From IMG/VR virus record IMGVR_UViG_3300042555_001005, positions 1 to 28,288 of that record: a stretch of 28,288 nt of DNA; one strand, 5' to 3'. The notes beneath the pieces are model-generated. The model saw only the letters and a program-made list of their open reading frames with translations. It searched no databases and was not told where the DNA came from. The translations under genes and the position numbers were made by a program. Source of the stretch: a virus. The stretch's first letter is position 1. Every line of letters begins with the position of its first letter. This document shows positions 32 through 26,443 of this stretch, piece after piece.

Positions 32-430
32 TGGTGGAGGCGGAGGGACTCGAACCCTCGTCCAGTCTATCCTGTCAGATAAGGACTACATGTTTAGGTC
101 AAGGTTTTTCATACCTTCCGAACTATCTGAGTTCTCACACCGCTCAGTGACGGTGATAGTTCTTTCGGGGAACCATACCCGTTTTGTTTTCTTTTAGAGT
201 GAAAACCAACTCATCAACGACTTCTGTTGCTAGGTTATCTGTCTGACCGACCCCCCGTTTCCGTACTTAAATTAAGCTACAGTAACTTCAGAACCTCTTA
301 CTAATCCAAGAGTTTCCATTTTGTTTAGCACATTGCCAGTTGTTTTCCAAGTCAGTTTTTAAAGAGATTAACTTAGTCCCTACATGCCCTTATTCCTCAG
401 CCAATACCTGTCAAATCCAAAAACACCCCC
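32..430 (-). ncRNA. ssrA: Transfer-messenger RNA (tmRNA), phage-encoded, atypical tag
   Basis: tmRNA rescues stalled ribosomes by acting as tRNA and then as a short mRNA that adds a degradation tag. The 3' part has a T arm (GAGGG, loop TTCGAGT, CCCTC) and an encoded CCA at 32-34. The 5' GGGGGTG at 430-424 pairs over seven positions with CGCCTCC next to CCA, with two G-U pairs, which fixes both ends and gives 399 nt. A long P2 helix (AUAAGG...GCAUGU with ACAUGU...CCUUAU) joins the halves. The likely tag frame starts with GGC at 337 and stops with TAA at 272-274: 21 residues, starting GNVLNKMETL and ending RGSEVTVA. A Gly start fits Bacteroidetes tmRNAs, but the tag is about twice the usual length and ends TVA rather than LAA. 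The tag frame is an inference; the RNA itself is secure. Confidence 0.93.
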
Positions 431-2342: not shown

Positions 2343-2373
2343 AAAAAAGGAGGGTTTTTAATCCTCCTTTTTA
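2343..2373. terminator. Bidirectional terminator, copy 1
   Basis: A stem AAAAAGGAGG/CCTCCTTTTT with an AT-rich loop lies between the convergent peptidase and endonuclease genes, with A and T runs on both sides so it can work both ways. Almost the same sequence recurs at 3361-3395. Confidence 0.8.
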
Positions 2374-3300
2374 TAAACAGCCCAATATTTTAATTATTTC
2401 GTCATTTGATTGTGAATAATTAACTCTAATTAATTTTATACTGTTTAATTCACAAAAATCATTTTTTATTCTATCTCTTATTTTAACTTTTTCAAACTCA
2501 CTTTCACCACCAAATATTGAAATAGGTTTAAAATGTTGTATCCCATCAAATTCAATACATATATTTTTTTCTGGGAGATAGAAATCAAAACGAAGTTTAT
2601 TTTTATCTCTACAATTTAAAAGAGACTTGTCGTACTGGAATTTTATTTTGTTTTTAGTTAGAAAATCAAAAATTACCTTTTCACCATAACTAATTTTAGT
2701 TCTTTTGTCAATCCCCAGCCAATCGTAATAATCAATCCATCCTTTATCTTTATATGTTTTTTCTGGTTTTTTTGGTATGTTGGTTGGTAATTTTGTTAGT
2801 TCTAATTTTGTCCATTCTTTACCCATTTTTAGATTTAAACTACGAGCCCAATCACGAGCCTCATCAAATGGTTTGTATTTTTTAAGATTATCTTGTATTC
2901 GGTTAGTTCCTAAAAAAATACCCCAACCTTCCCATTCTGATTTATATATTGAGACCGGATTATATGGTATCCCAGTTTCTTCAGACATAATTTTATTTAT
3001 TTGATTATAATAATCATTTTTACTTTTAATATTTAGAAGTCTAATTTGTTTTTTACATTTTTCGTATGTGTAGTACACACCATATTTATTTTTTTTATAT
3101 ATTGGTTTTCCTAAAAATTCAGACCAATTTTTACAAATATTTTTACCGTAAAATGTTATTGGATTTATTGGTGCCTTTTTACCATAAATCTTAAGATTTT
3201 TATAATTAGAAATATATGATTCTTTTGTTGTTATGTTTTGATTTTTAATTAAATCTTTTAATTCAGTATAACTATAATATTGTTCTTTATTAACCAACAT
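2371..3300 (-). CDS. Free-standing homing endonuclease, PD-(D/E)XK/Vsr-like, with integrase-repeat modules
   Basis: Probably a DNA endonuclease that spreads its own gene. The N-terminal two thirds hold three related modules of about 60 residues (roughly 8-65, 77-131 and 144-196), each with a helix-rich start and ending in a tryptophan-rich WSEFLG, WGIFLG or YDWLG motif. This resembles the phage-integrase repeat family used to contact DNA. The C-terminal domain (about 203-309) looks like a Vsr/PD-(D/E)XK nuclease: Glu207 in YGEKVI, Asp239 in RFDFYLP, Glu250/Asp252 in CIEFDG, then QHF at 255-257, Asp276 and Asn286 before a hydrophobic strand. The gene sits between two copies of the same terminator, which suggests insertion. 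A TATTTAT element precedes it on its strand. Active-site integrity looks good, but the target is unknown. Confidence 0.8.
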   Translation of the reverse strand: MLVNKEQYYSYTELKDLIKNQNITTKESYISNYKNLKIYGKKAPINPITFYGKNICKNWSEFLGKPIYKKNKYGVYYTYEKCKKQIRLLNIKSKNDYYNQINKIMSEETGIPYNPVSIYKSEWEGWGIFLGTNRIQDNLKKYKPFDEARDWARSLNLKMGKEWTKLELTKLPTNIPKKPEKTYKDKGWIDYYDWLGIDKRTKISYGEKVIFDFLTKNKIKFQYDKSLLNCRDKNKLRFDFYLPEKNICIEFDGIQHFKPISIFGGESEFEKVKIRDRIKNDFCELNSIKLIRVNYSQSNDEIIKILGCL

Positions 3301-3360: not shown

Positions 3361-3395
3361 ATAAAAAAAAGGAGGGTTTTTAATCCTCCTTTTTC
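3361..3395 (-). terminator. Terminator of the ClpC gene, copy 2
   Basis: This has the same GGAGG/CCTCC stem, loop and T tract as the hairpin at 2343-2373, differing by two extra A in the A run. The ClpC stop codon (3380-3382) lies in its loop, so the hairpin overlaps the end of the gene. Confidence 0.8.
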
Positions 3396-5629
3396 TTTCT
3401 ACCTCTTTTTTTCGGTTCTGGTTTTGATCTATCTTCAATTTCTATTGTCTGGCCATCACCTTCTCCTTTGACAAATAACACATATTCCTTTTCTTCAATA
3501 ACTTCATTCAATAATATTTTTTCTGAAATTAAATCTTCAATTTTATCCTGGATTGCTCTCTTTATTGGTCTTGCACCATATTGTTCATCAAACCCAACTT
3601 TGGCAATTAAATCAATTACTGAATTTTCATACGAAATTTTATACTTCATTGAATCTAACCGTTTTATTAGTTTATCAATTTCAAGTTTAACAATTTTATT
3701 GATTTGTTCTTTTTTTAATGAATTAAAGACAACAACATCATCAATTCTATTTAAAAATTCTGGTGCAAAAAACTTACTTAGTTCTTTCTTTAGAACATCT
3801 CGTTTATATTCTTCTTGAACAGCTTCACTATTATTTGATGTTTTAAAACCAACACCACTACCAAAATCTTGCAATTTTTTAACACCAATATTTGATGTCA
3901 TTATAATTAAACAATTTTTAAAATTAATTTTTCTACCAAGACTATCAGTAATATGTCCGTCATCTAATACTTGCAAAAGTGTTGAAAAAATGTCTTTGTG
4001 TGCTTTTTCTATTTCATCAAATAATATCACGGAATATGGTTTATTTTTAACTTGCTCTGTTAATTGACCACCTTCGTCTGAATTAACATAACCAGGAGGT
4101 GAGCCGATTAGTCGTGAAATTGTGTGTTTTTCTTGATATTCAGACATATCTACTCTAATTAAACTATCTTTACTCCCAAAAATTTCTTTTGCCAACTTTT
4201 TCGCCAAAAATGTTTTTCCCACACCAGTAGATCCTAGGAAGATAAATGAACCAATTGGTCTATTTGGATCCTTAATACCTACTCTATTTCGTCTAATTGC
4301 TTTTGAAATCTTTTTAACCGCTTCTTCTTGACCAATAACAGAACCATTAAGTGAGTCTTCCAAATTAACAAGTGAATTTTTTTCGTCTATATTAATCTTA
4401 CTAACTGGAATTTTTGTCATATTTGAAACGACTTCGTAAATTAAGTCCTCCGGAATACCTCTTTTACTATTTTTGAGTTCGTCCTCAAATTTTTTCTTTT
4501 CTTCCTCAAGTTTAGATAAAATATTTTTTTCTCTATCACGAAGTTCGGCAGCTAATTCATATTTTTGTTTTTTAATAACATCAACTTTTTCTAGTTTAAT
4601 ATCTGCGGCTTCTTGTTTTAATTTTTCTATATGTTCCGGAAGTTTAATATCAATTTGCATACGAGAACCAATCTCATCTAAAATATCAAAAGCCTTATCT
4701 GGAAATTCACGATCCGTAATATATCTATCCGCTAACTCAACACATAACCAAAGTGATTCATCTGTGTAATTTACTTTGTGGTGTTCCTCATATTTTTCCT
4801 TACTCTGTTTTAAAATTTGAAATGTCTCTTCTTTTGATGAAGGGTCAACAATTATCTTTTGGAATCTTCTTTCTAACGCACCATCCTTTTCAAAATGTTT
4901 TCTGTATTCGTCAAGTGTTGTAGCACCAATACATTGAATTTCACCCCTTGATAGTGAAGGTTTAAGAATATTTGAAGCGTCTAATGATCCAGAACTATTA
5001 CCAGCACCAACCATTGTATGAATTTCATCAATAAAGATTATAATATTTGGGTTTGATTGTAATTCTTCAATTATAACCTTCATTCTTTCTTCAAATTGTC
5101 CTCTATATTTTGTTCCAGCAACAAGTGAGTTAATATCTAATGATACAATTCTTTTATCAGCTAAATTTTTTGGGCATTCACCAGAATGTATCATCATTGC
5201 TAACCCTTCAACAATGGCCGTTTTACCACAATTGTGTGACACAATACCGTTTGAAATATATTTACGCTCATTATCAAGAACTTCAAGATCATATGTATTA
5301 TGAATACCAATTTCATTTTTTTCAATAACATCGTATAAATTATTATCTTCACAAAAAATAAAGTCGCCCAAATTGATATTTTTTAATTTAACCCAAAATG
5401 ATTCATTTATCAATTCTGAATTTTCATTAGTTGTTGTTGAATCAACCTCAACTAAATGATCTTCAGAACCCGATAAAGTATTACCGTTAGATAATTTTAT
5501 TTCATAACAAAGTTTATTTTGTTTTTCATATAAATTACCAATTAATTTATATCCTGATGGAGTTTTAATTTTATATGTCCCCCCTTCTTTTTCAATTAAC
5601 TCGAAAAAATCTTTAATTTTAATTTTCAT
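3380..5629 (-). CDS. clpC: ClpC-type AAA+ unfoldase, C-terminal piece with intein C-fragment
   Basis: Residues 1-133 are an intein C-terminal fragment: a block B-like GSEDHLVEV (His58), a block F-like TYDLEVLDNERKYI, and the end VSHN with penultimate His132 and Asn133. Cys134 then begins the extein CGKTAIVEG, the second half of the D1 Walker A. The rest is ClpC: pore loop KYRGQFEER (174-182), Walker B FIDEIH (Asp201, Glu202), arginine pair 254-255, a UVR-like coiled middle (about 339-390), D2 Walker A GSTGVGKT (466-473), Walker B VILFDE (534-539), a ClpP-docking loop VGF (593-595) and sensor-2 GARPIKR. The tail is basic. Joined to the 71 extein residues of the upstream piece, it gives a 687-aa unfoldase without the usual N domain. 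The start ATG overlaps the endonuclease gene by 11 nt, suggesting translational coupling. The unfoldase call is secure; splicing is inferred. Confidence 0.92.
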   Translation of the reverse strand: MKIKIKDFFELIEKEGGTYKIKTPSGYKLIGNLYEKQNKLCYEIKLSNGNTLSGSEDHLVEVDSTTTNENSELINESFWVKLKNINLGDFIFCEDNNLYDVIEKNEIGIHNTYDLEVLDNERKYISNGIVSHNCGKTAIVEGLAMMIHSGECPKNLADKRIVSLDINSLVAGTKYRGQFEERMKVIIEELQSNPNIIIFIDEIHTMVGAGNSSGSLDASNILKPSLSRGEIQCIGATTLDEYRKHFEKDGALERRFQKIIVDPSSKEETFQILKQSKEKYEEHHKVNYTDESLWLCVELADRYITDREFPDKAFDILDEIGSRMQIDIKLPEHIEKLKQEAADIKLEKVDVIKKQKYELAAELRDREKNILSKLEEEKKKFEDELKNSKRGIPEDLIYEVVSNMTKIPVSKINIDEKNSLVNLEDSLNGSVIGQEEAVKKISKAIRRNRVGIKDPNRPIGSFIFLGSTGVGKTFLAKKLAKEIFGSKDSLIRVDMSEYQEKHTISRLIGSPPGYVNSDEGGQLTEQVKNKPYSVILFDEIEKAHKDIFSTLLQVLDDGHITDSLGRKINFKNCLIIMTSNIGVKKLQDFGSGVGFKTSNNSEAVQEEYKRDVLKKELSKFFAPEFLNRIDDVVVFNSLKKEQINKIVKLEIDKLIKRLDSMKYKISYENSVIDLIAKVGFDEQYGARPIKRAIQDKIEDLISEKILLNEVIEEKEYVLFVKGEGDGQTIEIEDRSKPEPKKRGRKKKED

Positions 5630-6800
5630 AATAATAATTTTGTATTTTATTAATTAATAAGTTATAGTCAAAATCATAAATCAATTTTATATTATTGTCT
5701 ATACAAAATTGATTTTTAAAATCAACTTTTTGTTTATATATCTGTTGATTATCATCTAATTTGTTTAAATTTTTCTTATTTAATAGTCCATATAATTCAA
5801 TGTATGTATCTTTCTCTTTTAGATAAAAATCACACTTTAAATTTGAGTTTGGATAATTTTTTTCGTAGTCGAAATTAATTTTATTTTCTTCCAAAAATAA
5901 CGCAACTCTATATTCACCAACACTTTTATATCTAATACCATTATGATATACAGATATACCATAATATTGTCTATTTTGATTTAGATTTATTTTCTCATAA
6001 AATAAATTTTTTATGATTGTTGGTGTTGTTTTAAATATATTACAAATGACTTTACTATTAACATACTGTGTCAAATCCGAATATTTTTTTATGTCATCAT
6101 TTTTAATGATACAATCAATAAATTCATTAATTGTATTATAGGTAGAACAACCCATAATAATTCCTTTTGTTTTTTCTTTATAGTTTGCGTGTTGTAATAA
6201 CAATTTTGTTTCTTTCACATCATATTTAAATACATTTTTTTTCAACTGCACTTCTTGAAAATTTTCTTTATTTTTTAATGTGTTTATCCATTTTTTTTGT
6301 CTATTTAAGAATTTTTCAGTCCCAACAACTTCACCATATTTATCTATACATTTTTTTAAACTAAAAGTTGATTGACGCTCACTCAATTTAATTTTAGCAT
6401 CATTTAGGTTATATCCCTTATTTAACCAATATTCAATATTTGTAGTTTCACTACTTTTATATTTTTCTGGGTTTGATTGTTTCTTTTGTTTTAAAATATT
6501 AGAATTTTTACTTTGTTTTTCGGATATAAAAATATCAATCATATCCAATTCCCAACCCATACTTAATAAAAAATCTTTATTATAGATACTTTCAGGATAG
6601 TTTAATACCGACCTTAACACTGGTTTTATTTTTTTATAATTTAAAAACTCAGTCTGATTAATTAAGTCATTAACTTTTTGGATGTCTGAATCCCTAAATT
6701 TTATAAAATATTTATAAAATTTTTTATCTAATATAAAATTTTGAAACTCAATGACTGTATTAATTTCAATTAAATTCTTACCGTTTTTCTTGATAAACAT
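5619..6800 (-). CDS. Homing endonuclease gene inside the split intein, PD-(D/E)XK-like
   Basis: I take the ATG at 6800 (393 aa); an in-frame TTG at 6827 would add nine residues. The middle holds a module common in phage homing nucleases: YWLNKGYNLNDAK, then RQSTFSLKKCIDKYGE and RQKKWINTL (about 124-175). The C-terminal domain (about 288-393) has a PD-(D/E)XK layout like the other endonuclease in this window: Glu296 in VGEYRVALF, Asp324 in CDFYL, Glu335 in YIELYG, then FKNQFCIDNNIKLIYDF. The gene lies exactly between the intein halves, has its own TATTTAT element just after the intein N-fragment stop, and overlaps the start of the C-piece by 11 nt. Its likely job is to cut intein-free clpC alleles. 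The Gly-Leu-Leu after IELYG, where the relative has QHF, may mean a diverged active site. Confidence 0.8.
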   Translation of the reverse strand: MFIKKNGKNLIEINTVIEFQNFILDKKFYKYFIKFRDSDIQKVNDLINQTEFLNYKKIKPVLRSVLNYPESIYNKDFLLSMGWELDMIDIFISEKQSKNSNILKQKKQSNPEKYKSSETTNIEYWLNKGYNLNDAKIKLSERQSTFSLKKCIDKYGEVVGTEKFLNRQKKWINTLKNKENFQEVQLKKNVFKYDVKETKLLLQHANYKEKTKGIIMGCSTYNTINEFIDCIIKNDDIKKYSDLTQYVNSKVICNIFKTTPTIIKNLFYEKINLNQNRQYYGISVYHNGIRYKSVGEYRVALFLEENKINFDYEKNYPNSNLKCDFYLKEKDTYIELYGLLNKKNLNKLDDNQQIYKQKVDFKNQFCIDNNIKLIYDFDYNLLINKIQNYYYEN

Positions 6801-6836
6801 AATAATCCAGGTGTTGGGATATACCAATACCTAATA

Positions 6837-6843
6837 ATAAATA
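6837..6843 (-). promoter_or_regulatory. TATTTAT element before the intein-borne endonuclease gene
   Basis: The heptamer lies on the minus strand directly after the TGA of the ClpC N-piece and 36 nt before the endonuclease ATG. It may allow the endonuclease and the ClpC C-piece to be transcribed separately from the N-piece. Confidence 0.4.
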
Positions 6844-7131
6844 TCACAACTTTTTAAAATTGTGAGTATCAACATTAGATACTTTCTCAACCTCAATCCA
6901 AGTGTCTCCTAATACACATCCGGGTTCACCAATTATAATTGGATTATTTTTTTTTCTCCTTGATAATATCTGTGCAATTCTTAACACTTCTTTTTGCCTC
7001 CCAATAACAGGATCCAATTTTCCTTGTTCAGCAGCTTTAATTAAATCTTTGCTGAAATTGTCTAAAATAGGTGTGCTACCATCACCTTTTCTTTTGTTTT
7101 TGTCTCCATCATCTACAAATTCTATTGCCAT
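6844..7131 (-). CDS. clpC: ClpC N-terminal piece with intein N-fragment
   Basis: This 95-aa gene encodes the start of a ClpC-type unfoldase and then the start of an intein. Residues 20-71 ([20 protein letters not shown]... DPVIGR... [10 protein letters not shown]) are the classic beginning of a Clp D1 AAA+ domain; there is no ClpC N domain before it. Cys72 opens the intein sequence [11 protein letters not shown], matching intein block A, followed by 13 residues of no clear structure and a TGA. The protein makes no sense alone: the P-loop stops after its GEPG half. It must join the product of 3380-5629 to be useful. A hairpin covers its start codon and a TATTTAT element lies 27 nt upstream. 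Confidence 0.88.
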
Positions 7132-7292: not shown

Positions 7293-7661
7293 ATGTTTAA
7301 CAGAAATTTAGAAAGATTATTTAATGAATTTTTTAATTCGGATCCATTATTTGGGAATACTAATGATTGGGATAAAAAAACTTATCATTCACCAGATGGG
7401 TCAATTTCATTTACCTACATTACAAATAAAAGAGGTAATTTAACCAAATCCGATGAAATAACACTATTAAAACAAAAATTGGATATGGCGGTTGAGGAAC
7501 AAAATTTTGAGGAAGCTGTGGAGTTAAGAGATAGAATAAAAAATCTAGAAGAAAACAAAGAAAAAATAAGTGAGCTCAATAAAGAACTTGAAGATTGTAT
7601 TAAAACACAAAACTTTGAGAGGGCTATAGAAGTGAGAGATAAAATTAACTCCCTAAAATAA
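7293..7661 (+). CDS. UVR-motif protein, McsA-like, possible ClpC partner
   Basis: The 122-aa protein has two UVR motifs, about 58-85 (LDMAVEEQNFEEAVELRDRI) and 96-122 (LEDCIKTQNFERAIEVRDKI). UVR motifs are short helical hairpins found in UvrB/UvrC, in ClpC itself and in the ClpC adaptor McsA. The N-terminal 50 residues (MFNRNLERLFNEFFNSDP...) are not assigned; no Cys-rich zinc site of the McsA type is present. The gene is divergent from the ClpC N-piece and shares its intergenic region, which supports a functional link to ClpC rather than to nucleotide excision repair. It ends in a strong hairpin. The adaptor role is inference from motif and context. Confidence 0.75.
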   Translation: MFNRNLERLFNEFFNSDPLFGNTNDWDKKTYHSPDGSISFTYITNKRGNLTKSDEITLLKQKLDMAVEEQNFEEAVELRDRIKNLEENKEKISELNKELEDCIKTQNFERAIEVRDKINSLK

Positions 7662-16461: not shown

Positions 16462-19400
16462 ATGGGTTTAACAAAAGAACAGGTGATGTTGGAGTATGTG
16501 AGATGTATGAAAGACACTCCATATGCTTTAAGAACATATTTACAAACATATGATAATACCGTTTCCAAATATGTACCATTAGAGTTATTTCCAGATCAAA
16601 TATCACTACTTAAAGATTATGAAGATTTTGAAGAAAATATAGCTTTAAAATATCGTCAGGCTGGTGTATCAACAGTAACCGCTGCTTGGATATCAAAAAG
16701 ACTGGTTTTTGCAAAAAAAGAACGACCAGAAAAAATATTGATTATTGCCAACAAACTTGATACATCAATGGAGATGGCAAATAAAATTAGAGCCTTTGTA
16801 GAACAATGGCCTTCTTGGGTTGGAACCGGATTTTCAGCTGATAAAAACTCACAAAGACACTATAAACTAACAAATGGTTGTGAAGTTAAAGCTGTTGCAA
16901 CATCACGAGATGCGTTGAGGGGTTATACACCAACAATACTTGTATTTGATGAGGCGGCGTTTATCGAAGCTGATGGTGATTTCTGGGCAGCTTGTATGGC
17001 GTCCCTATCTACCGGTGGTAAAGTTATTGTTGTTTCAACACCAAACGGTTATGATCCAATTTATTATGAAATATATAATCAGGCAAATAAAGGAATTAAC
17101 AATTTTAAAATTTCTGAAATGTTTTGGTGGAAAGACCCAAGATATTCAAAAGATTTATATTTAGTTCCAACTGATGATATGGTTGATTATCTACTTAATA
17201 AAGATGAAAGAGATCATTCTGGGAATATATCATTTGAGGACTCGGATCCATATAATAGGGATTATGAGAAAATAAGAGAATATTTTTCACAAGGATATAA
17301 ACCATGTTCTACTTGGTATGAGAAGATGGTTAAAAAATTAAAATACGATAAAAGAAAAATTAACCAAGAGTTAAATTGTGAATTTTTAGGGTCTGGAGAT
17401 AATGTATTTGACGGAAAACAACTTGATTACATAAAACAAAACACAATACAAGAAGCTCCAACAAAAATGATGGGTAATGCTCTTTGGATTTGGAAAGAAC
17501 CAGTACCGGGACATAAATACATTTTAGGTTGTTTGCCACCTAGTGAAAAAGTATTAACTGATTGTGGGTTAAAAAATATTGAAGATGTTACATTAGATGA
17601 TAAGTTAGTTAGTGAAAATGGTGAATATGTTAAGATTTATAATAAACAAATATACCCAGTCGTTGATGAGGATATTTTTACAATTAAGGTCGACAACACT
17701 TTTAGAAAAACGACATTCACAAAAGAACATCCGTTGTTAATAAGTAATCCAGTTTTAAAACGTAATTATAGTAAAAAACATAATTCATTAGATTTTAATG
17801 AAAGATATTGGGATTTTAATTTTAAATACACAAGGGTTGAGGAAGTTGAGGTTGGTGATTGGGTTAAAACTCCGAATATTTATAATAAAGAAATTGAAAA
17901 TATATTAGAGGATAAATGGGTTATTTCTGAAAATATTAGAACCGATTTTAATATTAAATCACCATTAAAGGATAAAGATTTTTGGTGGTTTATAGGTATG
18001 TGGTTAGGTGATGGTTGTATGTATGATGTTGGTCATAGTTTTACAATAAATATCTGTTTTGATTCTAAAGATTTGTATTATTTGGATAAAACAAAAAATA
18101 TAATAAAAAGATTATTTGACAGAAGTCCGTCATTTTTTGATAAAGATCAGAATAGTTATGAATTAGTGTTTAATTCAAAATTTCTATATCATTTTATATT
18201 AGAAAATTTTGGTAAATATTCATATGGTAAAAAAATATCAGAATGGGTTAAATTTATACCTAAAGAATATAAAATTGAATTGATAAAAGGTTATTTAGCT
18301 AGTGACGGTTGTTGGTTGAAAACCAAAAAAAAAGGTAAAGTAAATTCTAAAATAACATTTGTTAGTATAAATTTGGAACTATTGGAGTCAATCCAAGACA
18401 TATTGTTTTCATTTGGTGTTGTTTCATCGTTAAGTAAGTTACGAAATGAAAAACAATCACAAATAAAGGGTAAAACTATAAAACATAAAGAAACATACAG
18501 TTTATCATTATCAAATCAAGATAGTTTGGATTTAATTAAAATTTTGAATAATGATAAACTTGACCCCAAATTAAATAGATTTGAGTTAAGTGATTTTAGT
18601 ATTAATAATAAAAGGATTATAAGTGGGTGTCATTTTAGTAAGGATAATAAATATATTTACTTTAGGATTAAAGATATTGATAAGAATCAATTTACTGGAA
18701 ATGTGTATAACTTTGAGTGTGAAACACATACTTTTATGTGTCACCACATTACCACACACAACTGTGATGTTTCTCGTGGTGATAGTGAGGACTTTTCCTC
18801 ACTCCAGATTATTGATTTTGATGAAAGAGAACAAGTATTAGAATATGTTGGAAAGATCCCTCCTGATGCTTTAGCTGAAATTGCGTATAAATGGGGGATA
18901 ATGTATAACGCATTTTGTGTTGTGGATATCACCGGTGGTATGGGAATCACAACTGTAAGAAAAATGCAAGAACTTGGATATAAAAACCTTTATATTGATG
19001 GTGTTGATTCTATGAATATTTGGGCTGTTAATAAAACATCGGCAGATAAAATACCAGGAATAAATTTTAATAACAAAAGAGTTCAAATTATTGCGGCATT
19101 TGAGGAATATGTAAGACATAAATTTAAAATCAGAAGTGTTCGTTTGTATAATGAGATGAATACGTTTGTCTATATAAACGGAAGGCCAGATCACCAAAAA
19201 GGACAACACGATGATCTTATAATGGGTATATCAATGGCAATATATGTTGGTGAGTCATCATTCTCAAAACTTGAAAAAGTTACAGAAAAAACAAAAATAA
19301 TGATTGAATCTTGGACTGTTGCAAATAATGATAATATTGGAAAACAAATTCATTTTGATCCTGTAATACCAAATATGGGAGTTAATAACGATAGATTTAA

Positions 19401-20531: not shown

Positions 20532-23500
20532 ATGGAAAAAAATAACTTGACAATATGGCAGAAATTATCCAAAACATTTGGCCCCAACTCACTTTTGAAT
20601 CTAGACCAACCAACAGTTAAATTGGATAAAACGGTTTTATTAAAAACAACAGATAAACAAGAATACGAAAAAGAAAAATTAGAATACCAACAAAGTTTAT
20701 TTTTAAGTAATCAATGGCAAAAAATTGAGAATAATTTATATGCTCAAGCGGTGTATTATGAACCTAATAGAATTGCGGCTTTTTATGATTATGAATCAAT
20801 GGAATATTGTATTGCGGGAGATACTAAAATCGCAACCACAGATGGTTTTATAACAATTAAAGAATTAGCCGAAAAAGGTAGAGATTATGAATTTATTACG
20901 TACGCATATGACCACAATTTAAAAAAAGTTGTTCCGGCTTTAGCTAGAAATGCTCATTATACGAGAGATGAAATGACATATAAAATTACATTTGACGACG
21001 GTTCATATATTGTAACAACATGGGAACATCAACTAATGAAAAGAGATGGTTCATTTGAACGTGTAATGAACTTAAAAGAAGGGGACTCAATGATGCCTTT
21101 TTATAGAAAATCATTTTACAATAATGAAAAATATAATTGGGTATATACTTGTAATTCAGAAGAAGGTCATAATGGATGGGTTTCGGAACATAATTTAATT
21201 GCAGAATGGTTTTATGGTAAAAAAATTAACAAAGATGAAGAAGTTCATCATATAGATTTTAACGGTAAAAATAACAAACCGGAAAATTTACAAATAATGA
21301 ATATTTCCGAACATAGAGCTTATCACGCAAGATTAAACAACGAAAAATTGTGGACAAACCCAGAGTATAGACAAAAAATGTCTGAAGTTGCAAAAAGAAC
21401 AGGTGAACATAGTTGGGATGGTAAGAGAAGTGGTATTAATAACCCAGCTTACTTTAAAATACCTTTTGATAGTATCATAGAAACCGCCAGAGAAATAAAA
21501 ACATTAAAGGGTACTGCAAAAAAATTAAATGTATCATATAGAAAAATACAAAGAGAAATCGTAAATAGTGGGTATAAAGATTGGTCCACATTTTTAGAAG
21601 CATACGGGATTAAAAAATCAATATACGCAACAGTAAAAAGTAAGGGAAACACATTAGTATTTAATCATAAAATAGTATCAATAGAAGAAAATGGTGTCAT
21701 ACCTGTTTATGATTTAACAGTTCCAGGATATAAAAACTTTGCAACTGATACTATATTTTCACATAATACTCCTGAAATATCAACGGCTTTAGACATTTAT
21801 TCTGAGGAATCTACAACACCAAATCAAGATGGTTATGTTCTACAGATATATTCAGAATCAAAGAGAATCAAATCAATTTTAACTGATTTGTTTAATAATG
21901 TTTTGGACATATCAATCAATTTACCAATGTGGGTAAGAAACACTCCAATTAGAGAGAATACTATGATACCATTATTAGATGGTACAGAAGTATCAATAAA
22001 AGAATTGAGTGATAGGATTAAGAATGGTGAGGAGATTTGGTCTTACTCAATACAAGATGGAACTAAAGCAATTGTTCCTAGTAAAATTATATGGTGTGAC
22101 CTAACTAGAAAAAATAGTGAGTTGTATAGGGTCACACTAGATGATGGTACATATATTGACACGACACCAGATCACGAATATATGCTTAGGGATGGGTCAT
22201 TTAAACGAGCTGATAAATTAACTAAAGGTGAATCATTAATGCCGTTTTACACTAAAAAAAGTGAAAAGAAAAAAGACCGAATTGTCGGTTATGAAAAGGT
22301 ATTTAACCCAAGTACAGGAAAATATAAATTTACCCACACAATGGTTTCACATGAATGTGTTAGAGATTTGGAAAATGAAAAAATAATTGGTGAGCAATTT
22401 GACACACATCACATTGATTTTAACAAACTAAATAATCACCCAAAAAATTTGAGTAGAATGAGACATTCGGATCATTTTAAATTACATGTGGAACATTTTA
22501 ATAAAATATTAGGTTCGCCAGAAGTTGTTAAAAAAAGAATGGATGGAATTGATAGGTATTTGCGTTCAGAAAAACGAAGACAAAGACTATCCAAAGAAAT
22601 GACTGGTGTCTATAATAGATATTTTGAAAATTATAATAATAGTGAATTACATGTCAAACACAATATAATTCGTTCAAATAAAATGTTAAATCATTGGAGA
22701 GATAATAATTTTATAGAAAAAACAAAAAAGGGGATGACAATTGAAATTAATGATACTTGTTTATCGTATATTTCTAATTTAATTAAAAATTGTGAGACAT
22801 ATGTGGGAGTAAATGAGTTGTCAAAAATTCTCAAATCAGATAATGAGTTTATCAAACTATTCAAAGAAAATTATAAATTAAATAAAAATATCACAAAATC
22901 AATTAATCCAACAACATTAAAAAAAGTTATTTTAAGAAAAACAAATAAAAATTATTTTGATTTTATATCTGATATTAAACCAGAAATTATTTTAGATGAA
23001 AAATATATTAAAGCTAAGTCAATTTTTGAAGGAAAAACTAAAGTAAAAGTTATTAACCATAAAGTTGTTTCAGTAATTAAGTTAGATGAAACATCTGATG
23101 TTTATTGTTTAGAAGCTGTTGGTCCGAACGGAGAACATGATAGACATAATTTCCCAGTCTGTGGTTTTGATGTAAATGGTAATCATTCAAGAGAAACCGG
23201 TGTGTTTTTGTCCAACTGTAAATATGGCGATAATTTCGTTTATTTAAAATTAGACCCAGAAAAAGGTGTTGTCGGCTGTCTTCAACTACCAAACATAGAA
23301 ATTGAAAGACTAGAAAGAGGAATGGAAGCCAGAACTATGAATTCGGTTTTGGGTCCTGAAGTTCAATTCAAAAATAAAAATTTAAAGTTTGTTTGGAAAA
23401 ACAAAGACATGGAGTTTAACACTTGGGAAATGGCTCATTTCAGATTATTAGGTGATGATAGAAAACTTCCATACGGAACATCAATGCTTGAAAAAGCTCG

Positions 23501-26026: not shown

Positions 26027-26443
26027 ATGTCAGAATCCGTAACATATATTTATGTATTGAAAGATCCGGTTAATAATGATGTTAGATATGTTGGTAAATC
26101 TGATAAACCAAAAGAAAGGATTATTGAACACATAAGAAAAAGTAAGTATAAAAAAACATATAAAAATATTTGGATTCAAAAACTAATTAAAGAAGGTAGA
26201 AAATCATTATCTGAAAAAAGAAAAGGTGTAAAAAACCCTATGTTTGGTAAAAAACAATCAAAAAATTGTATTGAAGGTAAATATAAACAAGTAAATCAAT
26301 ATGATTTAAATGTTGATTTTATAAAAAGTTGGAAATCACTAAAAGAAGTATCAGAATATTTATCTATAAACCGAAACTCAATTAGGATGTGTGCAAATAA
26401 TCAACGAAAGAGTGCTGGTGGATATAAATGGAAATTTAAATAA
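26027..26443 (+). pseudogene. Internally deleted GIY-YIG homing endonuclease (138 aa)
   Basis: The start is a GIY-YIG domain: YIYVLKDPVNNDVRYVGKSD with the Tyr pair, then RIIEHI (Arg). After KNIWIQKLIKEGRK the sequence jumps straight to SLSEKRKGVKNPMFGKKQS, a NUMOD3-like DNA-binding motif that normally follows a complete domain. The part with the catalytic Glu and the second half of the nuclease is missing, an in-frame loss of perhaps 40-70 residues. A NUMOD1-like helix-turn-helix (VNQYDLNVDFIKSWKSLKEV to GGYKWKF) ends the protein. The DNA-binding end is intact and the frame is open, so it may still be made, but cutting is unlikely. It sits directly before the protease gene, only four nt away. 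Confidence 0.75.

Follow-up and report, generated by a model that had tools for sequence, protein, structure and literature searches.

A phage clpC gene split in its first Walker A motif by a VidaL-type intein enclosing a putative homing endonuclease gene

The DNA analysed here, positions 1 to 28,288 of the IMG/VR virus record IMGVR_UViG_3300042555_001005 (28,288 nucleotides, hereafter the window), carries the gene of the Clp unfoldase ClpC as two genes on the minus strand, arranged in the order N-piece, endonuclease open reading frame (ORF) and C-piece (Table 1). It is proposed, with a probability of about 0.9, that this is a fractured clpC in which a VidaL-type, S1-split intein trans-splices ClpC from its two pieces and the enclosed endonuclease homes into empty clpC genes. 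A preceding interpretation by a model given the letters and their reading frames (the sequence-only reading) had suggested a split intein with an endonuclease gene at the ClpC Walker A motif, and this suggestion is now backed by profile matches, a predicted fold, conserved residues, empty sites and phylogeny. The ORFs bear out its account of a break in Walker A with a complete endonuclease gene in the gap, and the host parts, or exteins, add up to the 687 amino acids (aa) it had predicted (71 + 616). The range to which it had assigned the element, 5231-7131, runs from the N-piece through the endonuclease gene to the C-terminal intein fragment (IntC) and leaves out the C-extein.

According to the proposed mechanism, the intein sits in the first Walker A motif of clpC, with GEPG before it and CGKT after it, and one message would give rise to ClpC-N fused to the N-terminal intein fragment (IntN), to the homing endonuclease, and to IntC fused to ClpC-C. 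The last of these would probably be translated by coupling at a stop-start overlap; the first 11 bases of IntC, from its ATG, are also the last of the endonuclease gene. IntN would then dock on IntC and rebuild the HINT fold, and the exteins would be joined through Cys1, Asn133 and Cys+1 into a ClpC of 687 aa whose P-loop is whole. The endonuclease, for its part, would cut clpC P-loops that lack the intein, in phages infecting the same cell; through repair, the whole cassette (IntN, hairpin, endonuclease gene, IntC and Cys+1) would be copied into the cut gene. At a later stage the endonuclease gene would decay or be deleted, leaving clpC split and dependent on trans-splicing, and one lineage seemingly fused the halves again.

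Several profiles identify the intein. The NCBIfam family TIGR01443 (intein_Cterm) matches the C-piece with 20.5 bits against a cut-off of 15.6, and PF14890 (Intein_splicing) matches 13/13 IntC relatives at E up to 1, with a best value of 4e-7; on the window's own IntC it gives E 0.001, below its cut-off. A profile of 13 IntCs compared with solved structures found gp41-1 (3e-10), VidaL (5e-9) and CatC (1e-4). In keeping with a class 1 intein, Cys occupies position 1 of IntN in 15/15 split alleles, and H58, D114, H132 and N133 of IntC are invariant in 13/13 rows (12 ClpC, one SbcC); the assignment of the invariant IntC residues to the block B His and the block F Asp is our assumption. A fold model was made from a relative, L096 (fetched loci carrying relatives are labelled L and a number, and W is the window's own allele), whose IntN and IntC share a reading frame interrupted by one TAA, which was read as Gln. 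The joined intein reached a predicted local distance difference test score (pLDDT) of 79.1 and a predicted template modelling score (pTM) of 0.74, and its best Foldseek matches were inteins, led by VidaL 6vgv (E 4.5e-11, template modelling score 0.92 by target, root-mean-square deviation 2.1). VidaL (6vgv/6vgw) is thus the best fold match and the second-best profile match of the ClpC intein. No cellular relative of the intein was found among 84 pattern matches in genome_contigs.

The position of the split also agrees with VidaL. In the ClpC intein the KIKI(K/E)(D/E)F strand is on IntC, whose K2 aligns to residue 25 of the VidaL chain, and both inteins are S1 splits with a KIKI-type strand on IntC, whereas in the TerL-type split inteins seen (L191/L192 and 17A of phage PX29; by eye) this strand is on IntN. 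On sequence comparison the ClpC intein is therefore an S1 split of the VidaL type, and the earlier placement of KIKIKDF on the C-piece holds. The claim that IntN is even shorter than known examples stands against AceL-TerL and fails in general, as IntNs of 15 and 16 aa at S1 have been published and the encoded IntN has 24 aa. This length is found in 14/15 split alleles, with 26 aa in L188. In the L096 model strand 27-34 corresponds to IntN residues 7-14 and strand 46-51 spans the IntC start; because the IntN strand ends at 14 and IntN residues 18-22 fall below pLDDT 50, the useful part of IntN is probably about 14-17 residues and the remainder a tail. Within this tail [ST]18 and H19 are kept in 14/14 alleles, and the tail is replaced in a contiguous intein at the same site, L190. 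Over 91 pairs, the ratio of nonsynonymous to synonymous differences (pN/pS) was 0.19 for the IntN core and 0.42 for the tail, and this weaker constraint speaks rather against a conserved tail that would aid docking in trans.

Relatives of the locus form a series of alleles at one site. In a first scan 80 of 340 clpC relatives were kept, chosen for their likeness to the window's ClpC; the first P-loop was uninterrupted in 73/80 loci and split in 7/80, so the phages with intact clpC that the sequence-only reading had proposed looking for do exist. Further scans with IntC brought the collection to 27 split contigs and one contiguous intein at this site, besides the window, and merging of near-copies left 15 distinct split alleles, the window included (L093 differs from L091 by one IntC residue). 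The endonuclease gene is intact in seven of the 15 (W, L004, L051, L061, L103, L104 and L110), broken in one (L085), reduced to remnants in two (L098 and L099, the latter retaining the last 35 codons) and absent in five that are still split (L086, L091, L096, L187 and L188). By contigs, an intact endonuclease ORF is present in 13/27, with 389-393 aa from the first Met. The five endonuclease-free alleles keep the IntN stop, with only 6-29 nucleotides before the IntC ATG, and the split reading frames stay open in 15/15 alleles up to the contig ends, which cut off part of L104 and L188. L104, with the endonuclease gene, and L091, without it, are identical in 75/75 bases of IntN plus stop and in 295/298 of IntC.

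Read-through of the IntN stop was considered as another way to join the halves. IntC is out of frame with IntN in five of the seven endonuclease-free or remnant alleles (L086, L187, L188, L098 and L099), so that read-through could not join the halves there and is ruled out by frame in these five. The contiguous L190 (CVLGDTLIEIEKISDKICQKIKIKDFF) groups with the split alleles L100, L098 and L099 in the intein tree (91/88), and this grouping suggests that its lineage fused split halves again; an old contiguous form is the alternative, the tree being midpoint-rooted and short. As the L104 contig ends in IntC, this allele, whose IntN equals that of L091, was omitted from the count of +1 residues, the intein tree, the IntN pN/pS and the ratios of nonsynonymous to synonymous substitution rates (dN/dS) of IntN and IntC. 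L099, L103 and L188 are absent from the ClpC tree and from the table of 66 allele pairs used below on account of a short first C-extein reading, since the L188 contig ends and L099 and L103 are broken a second time.

Purifying selection acts on both intein fragments. In 11 allele pairs, with synonymous differences of mostly 40-80%, all dN/dS values that could be calculated (IntN 9/11, IntC 8/11; the rest are saturated) were at most 0.18, and between L086 and L091, both endonuclease-free, they were 0.09 for IntN and 0.05 for IntC. The extein values of this comparison, obtained from sequences aligned without gaps, were disregarded. The endonuclease itself gave values of 0.20-0.47 in 21/21 pairs. 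The residue at +1 is Cys in 34/34 split intein loci and in the contiguous locus, against Ala in 60, Cys in 9 and Ser in 4 of the 73 empty loci, near-copies being counted in both sets; by distinct C-exteins, Cys is found in 16/16 with the intein, compared with Ala 43, Cys 7 and Ser 2 among the empty ones.

The histories of intein and ClpC, as read from sequence comparison, disagree. In the ClpC tree W stands beside the empty L013 (90/83) and L004 beside the empty L016 (100/100). The filled L004 and the empty L016 share 141/150 bases before the site and 146/150 after it, with no scar in the empty sequence; their sequences upstream of clpC are different. Between W and L085 the likeness is 81% in IntC against 58% in the C-extein, and L098 and L099 share 396/399 bases of IntC, compared with 181/210, 265/300, 266/300 and 237/300 in the flanking exteins. 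A drop in likeness between L098 and L099 beyond 900 bases downstream was discarded as a sign of transfer, as the second break of L099 explains its short C-extein.

The endonuclease ORF, for which an alternative TTG start at 6827 would give 402 aa, matched no Pfam or NCBIfam family at E 0.1, and a PDB sequence search returned chance-level matches only, none of them to the solved I-Bth0305I. A faint match to phrog_4538 (E 9e-4) is common to the window's other endonuclease gene. In the AlphaFold model, the C-terminal domain (275-393) has as its best VIA match the catalytic domain of I-Bth0305I (3r3p_B, Z 9.1), followed by 3hrl (8.1), Vsr 1cw0_A (8.0) and 1vsr (7.1); the likeness to I-Bth0305I is thus one of predicted fold, with no sequence match. 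E296, D324 and E335 are invariant in 7/7 alleles. A middle module of approximately CI.KYG...G...F..RQ.KW recurs in the L106 endonuclease and, somewhat altered, in that of L204, and a piece of it was also seen in a hypothetical protein encoded upstream of a terminase gene of Caulobacter phage Cr30.

Between IntN and the endonuclease gene lies a predicted RNA hairpin. Wherever the endonuclease gene is intact or broken (8/8 alleles), the IntN stop is followed by TATTTAT, the hairpin and the endonuclease start, in this order; TATTTAT is absent after the IntN stop in 7/7 alleles with a remnant or no endonuclease gene. Over the 8 alleles 89.1% of cells are paired, slid versions never exceeding 59.4%, and the covariation score was 0.433 against 0.162 for shuffled alignments, with 0/500 shuffles as high. 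The hairpin perhaps serves to delay translation of the endonuclease.

A number of observations weigh against the proposed interpretation or limit its reach. The prediction of a HINT-type fold comes from the relative L096 and not from the window's own joined intein. The dN/dS values are rough, dS being near saturation in most pairs and IntN having about 14 synonymous sites. In 40/66 pairs the likeness in IntC does not exceed that in the C-extein, so much of the intein's history may have been vertical. The assignment of the endonuclease is mostly one of predicted fold, with a pTM of 0.34 and a Foldseek match to 3r3p of E 0.27 (probability 0.94), and the Z of 9.1 is little above the 7-8 reached by models without clear relatives; because such values are common by chance and because of the Foldseek E value, a Vsr/I-Bth0305I (EDxHD) fold is graded as probable only. 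As for the hairpin, doubly changed pairs (4/8) are not above shuffles (268/500), and its energy is exceptional in some alleles only: z is -0.16 in the window, compared with -4.7 in L085, -4.0 in L104, -2.5 in L103, -1.7 in L088 and L095, -1.1 in L100 and -0.6 in L110, and the regions in L103 and L110 are predicted to fold otherwise.

Other explanations must be weighed against the same data. The strongest rival, although very unlikely, is that an endonuclease gene has destroyed clpC, leaving an intein that does not splice and pieces that decay. Walker A is indeed broken at the DNA level and trans-splicing is itself inferred, but decaying pieces would hardly keep dN/dS of 0.18 or less in IntN and IntC, also between the endonuclease-free L086 and L091, or frames that stay open across all 15 alleles. 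Lower still in probability is the idea that the pieces work as halves held together non-covalently. Split proteins can in principle assemble, as is generally known; here, however, the break falls inside the phosphate-binding loop, a 24- or 133-aa intein part would remain beside it, and the splicing residues have been kept.

Equally improbable is splicing at the RNA level, in which the intein gene would be contiguous and would contain a group I or II intron that bears the endonuclease gene and is removed from the mRNA. A published study (PMC12350094) describes phage introns whose endonucleases are distant relatives of the EDxHD/Vsr type, and a structured element precedes the endonuclease gene here. 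Against this, no Rfam intron family was found in the window at gathering score, nor between 5200 and 7200 at E up to 10; as the endonuclease ORF extends into the IntC ATG, there is no room for a separate 3' part of an intron; and the gap of 6-29 nucleotides behind the retained IntN stop of the endonuclease-free alleles is too short for an intron. An assembly or sequencing artefact, for which it can be said that the data are metagenome contigs, is scarcely credible. The stretch 5231-7131 is letter-for-letter identical in three other contigs (L002/L084, L003/L083 and L082), one of which (L003/L083) nevertheless differs elsewhere in clpC, and, in addition, 15 distinct alleles are split and relatives show the site precisely empty. 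The assembly error that the sequence-only reading had itself raised is excluded by these independent contigs and alleles, and the fractured, trans-splicing clpC remains the preferred explanation.

The interrupted protein resembles ClpC. Among solved structures the C-extein best matches S. aureus ClpC (6em8, E 5e-195), with ClpB behind, and it contains a VGF motif, which we take to be the ClpP-binding loop. The N-extein resembles the N-termini of uninterrupted homologues. The N-terminal Clp_N domain was not found in this 71-aa extein, and the uninterrupted phage relatives likewise do without it; from its sequence, the window's protein is a ClpC-type phage protein without the N-terminal ClpC domain. 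The window is part of a large phage, judging by its identity to a 257-kb contig (L082) over the 19,001 bases compared. In that contig the clpC described here is the sole ClpC match, with no second clpC, and no ClpP partner was found, contigs of this kind possibly being fragments; ClpP genes are present in 2/10 large phage contigs searched that have the clpC family (L193 and L194). Divergent from clpC lies a gene for a small protein with two UVR motifs. Such motifs occur in ClpC adaptors such as McsA, and this protein may be a phage ClpC adaptor.

IntC searches also reach similar designs in other P-loops, a hyphen marking the break in the motifs that follow. The SbcC/gp46 P-loop intein (GGK-T; L106, L213-L226) forms a series of its own: split with an endonuclease gene (L106, L214, L215, L218), split without one (L213, L222), contiguous (L219, L221), and, in L224, with another ORF in the gap. 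In the PhoH P-loop, GKAG-TGKT (L204:1087-4349; L206), IntN is followed by a 430-aa endonuclease gene and IntC, and a 27-pair hairpin is recorded after the IntN stop. The UvsX P-loop is broken at GESG-SGK in L210, with N-piece, endonuclease gene and IntC, and L209, L211 and L212 look alike; the break has the same P-loop position as GEPG-CGK in ClpC. The IntC of L210 matches VidaL 6vgv with E 1.3e-32, and these UvsX loci (L209-L212) are a likely natural setting of this laboratory intein. The 70 bases after IntN of L106, L215, L214, L210 and L204 fold into long hairpins, in an analysis without shuffle control.

Two of the split alleles, L099 (= L236) and L103 (= L234), have clpC broken also in the second Walker A motif, which is intact in the window. 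After GSTGVGK-C comes a stop, then an endonuclease-like gene (391 and 406 aa), and then an IntC ending LSHN-T(Y/L)LAK. Within L103, the first and the second IntC agree in 29% of 127 columns. The nearest match of the second is CatC, the TerL consensus intein (E 4.6e-7), and it gave no TIGR01443 match at E 0.01. Only one of the two second endonucleases is a clear member of phrog_22677. A scan with the second IntC found 23 loci (L234-L256); a second-Walker-A extein follows in 21, and the N-side GVGK-C was found in 18 of these 21. This family lies at GxGK-T of the first Walker A in L253 and L254, L241 has N-sides at both the first-Walker-A GxGK-T site and the second Walker A, and L243 looks contiguous. 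With both Walker A motifs broken, these ClpCs would have to be trans-spliced twice, the two inteins not reacting with each other.

Taken together, these loci invite a wider reading, which is offered tentatively and is rather doubtful. P-loops of large-phage ATPases would be a shared target of split inteins with endonuclease genes, and phage Clp ATPases would be assembled from up to three polypeptides by two non-cross-reacting split inteins, at GEPG-CGKT, at GxGK-T of the first Walker A, or, S2-like, at GVGK-T of the second. The window's type would alternate between contiguous, endonuclease-loaded split and endonuclease-free split forms, and the IntN tail, [ST]18-H19, would aid docking. If this were true, a gene split by an endonuclease gene could become whole again, and the need for trans-splicing might postpone ClpC assembly during infection.

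Elements of this kind are already known; what sets the present variant apart is its host gene, the set of natural intermediates at a single site and the relatives broken twice. In fractured genes, as Dassa et al. reportedly described them in 2009 (a paper among the references of PMC12350094 and PMC13014065), a split intein breaks up an enzyme gene, the gap holds a free-standing endonuclease gene that is often related to Vsr, a control element is sometimes brought in, and the exteins are said to be enzymes of DNA synthesis or repair, mostly with a canonical long IntN. The window's locus likewise combines a split enzyme gene, intein parts at the break, an endonuclease gene and intein-free alleles, with the difference that the extein here is a protein unfoldase and IntN is short.

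Natural splits with a short IntN are, in the available part of PMC13014065, of S1 type (VidaL with 16 aa, PolB16 with 15 aa) and of S2 type (AceL and GOS TerL). VidaL relatives sit in UvsX and not in ClpC, and the 16-aa IntN given for VidaL there compares with 24 aa here. The endonuclease of L210 (UvsX) belongs to phrog_22677, whereas the window's endonuclease has no match to this family at E 0.01. PolB16 OarG, from a sheep gut metagenome, has a 15-aa IntN according to the accessible text of PMC10189870; it is like the ClpC intein in its short IntN and S1 split (PMC13014065, same part) and differs from it in its serine nucleophiles and its PolB extein. AceL-TerL and GOS-TerL are also natural atypical splits with a short IntN (PMC11766414 and PMC13014065, both in excerpt), but are split at S2, with the next strand on IntN and TerL as extein. 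In the cultured Aeromonas phage PX29 the terminase genes gp17A/17B are annotated with an N-intein and a C-intein and a GIY-YIG part between them; unlike in the window, the nuclease is of GIY-YIG type and fused to IntC, and the extein is TerL.

Regarding Clp proteins, the accessible portion of PMC2410131 describes inserts in chloroplast ClpC and an intein only in dnaB, and that of PMC5784728 reports ClpP inteins in green algal chloroplasts and bacteria. A ClpC intein was absent from the titles and abstract beginnings of the literature matches listed, which leave most subscription journals uncovered, so that a precedent in print is possible.

The ClpC site places a mobile split intein in the active site of a protein-quality-control unfoldase. 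Its natural series (empty, split with endonuclease gene, broken, remnant, split without, contiguous) offers a test bed for the origin and reversal of split inteins, and bears on the question of why genes remain split after the invader is lost. The relatives broken in both Walker A motifs raise that of how three pieces are put together in the right order into one protein, and the ClpC-site inteins represent natural short-IntN inteins for protein labelling.

Table 1. Positions of the parts of the broken clpC locus and of other features in the window.
Feature	Position	Strand	Description
N-piece	7131..6844	-	71-aa ClpC extein ending GEPG, 24-aa IntN, TGA
ClpC N-extein	6919..7131	-	71 aa, ends with GEPG of first Walker A; ClpB/ClpA-type model matches up to Walker A
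IntN	6847..6918	-	24 aa; core about 1-14, tail 15-24 (6847..6876); TGA at 6844-6846
RNA hairpin (predicted)	6810..6831	-	upstream of endonuclease ATG, after conserved TATTTAT 3' of IntN stop
Free-standing endonuclease ORF (putative)	5619..6800	-	393 aa from ATG at 6800 (ATG agrees with other alleles)
C-piece	5629..3380	-	749 aa: IntC 1-133 ending VSHN, then CGKTAIVEG
IntC	5231..5629	-	133 aa, MKIKIKDF...IVSHN
ClpC C-extein	3380..5230	-	616 aa from CGKTAIVEG; AAA+ modules, VGF loop, second Walker A (GVGKT) intact
Small protein	7293..7661	+	two UVR motifs
Free-standing homing endonuclease gene	2371..3300	-	phrog_9084; directly downstream of clpC
Transfer-messenger RNA (tmRNA)	32..430	-	phage-encoded; 105 bits
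Terminase intein	17530..18762	+	contiguous, with LAGLIDADG domain, in T4-type terminase large subunit gene
Portal inteins	20808..21767 and 21945..23216	+	two contiguous inteins in portal gene, one with HNH domain
GIY-YIG endonuclease	26027..26443	+	with NUMOD motifs

Among the other mobile elements of the window, the phrog_9084 endonuclease gene sits behind a terminator-like GGAGG..CCTCCTTTTTTTT. The second portal intein seems to start with Pro (PIRENTMIPLLDG), ends LSN-C and has a Cys in VYCLEAV, features that presumably resemble those of class 3 inteins.

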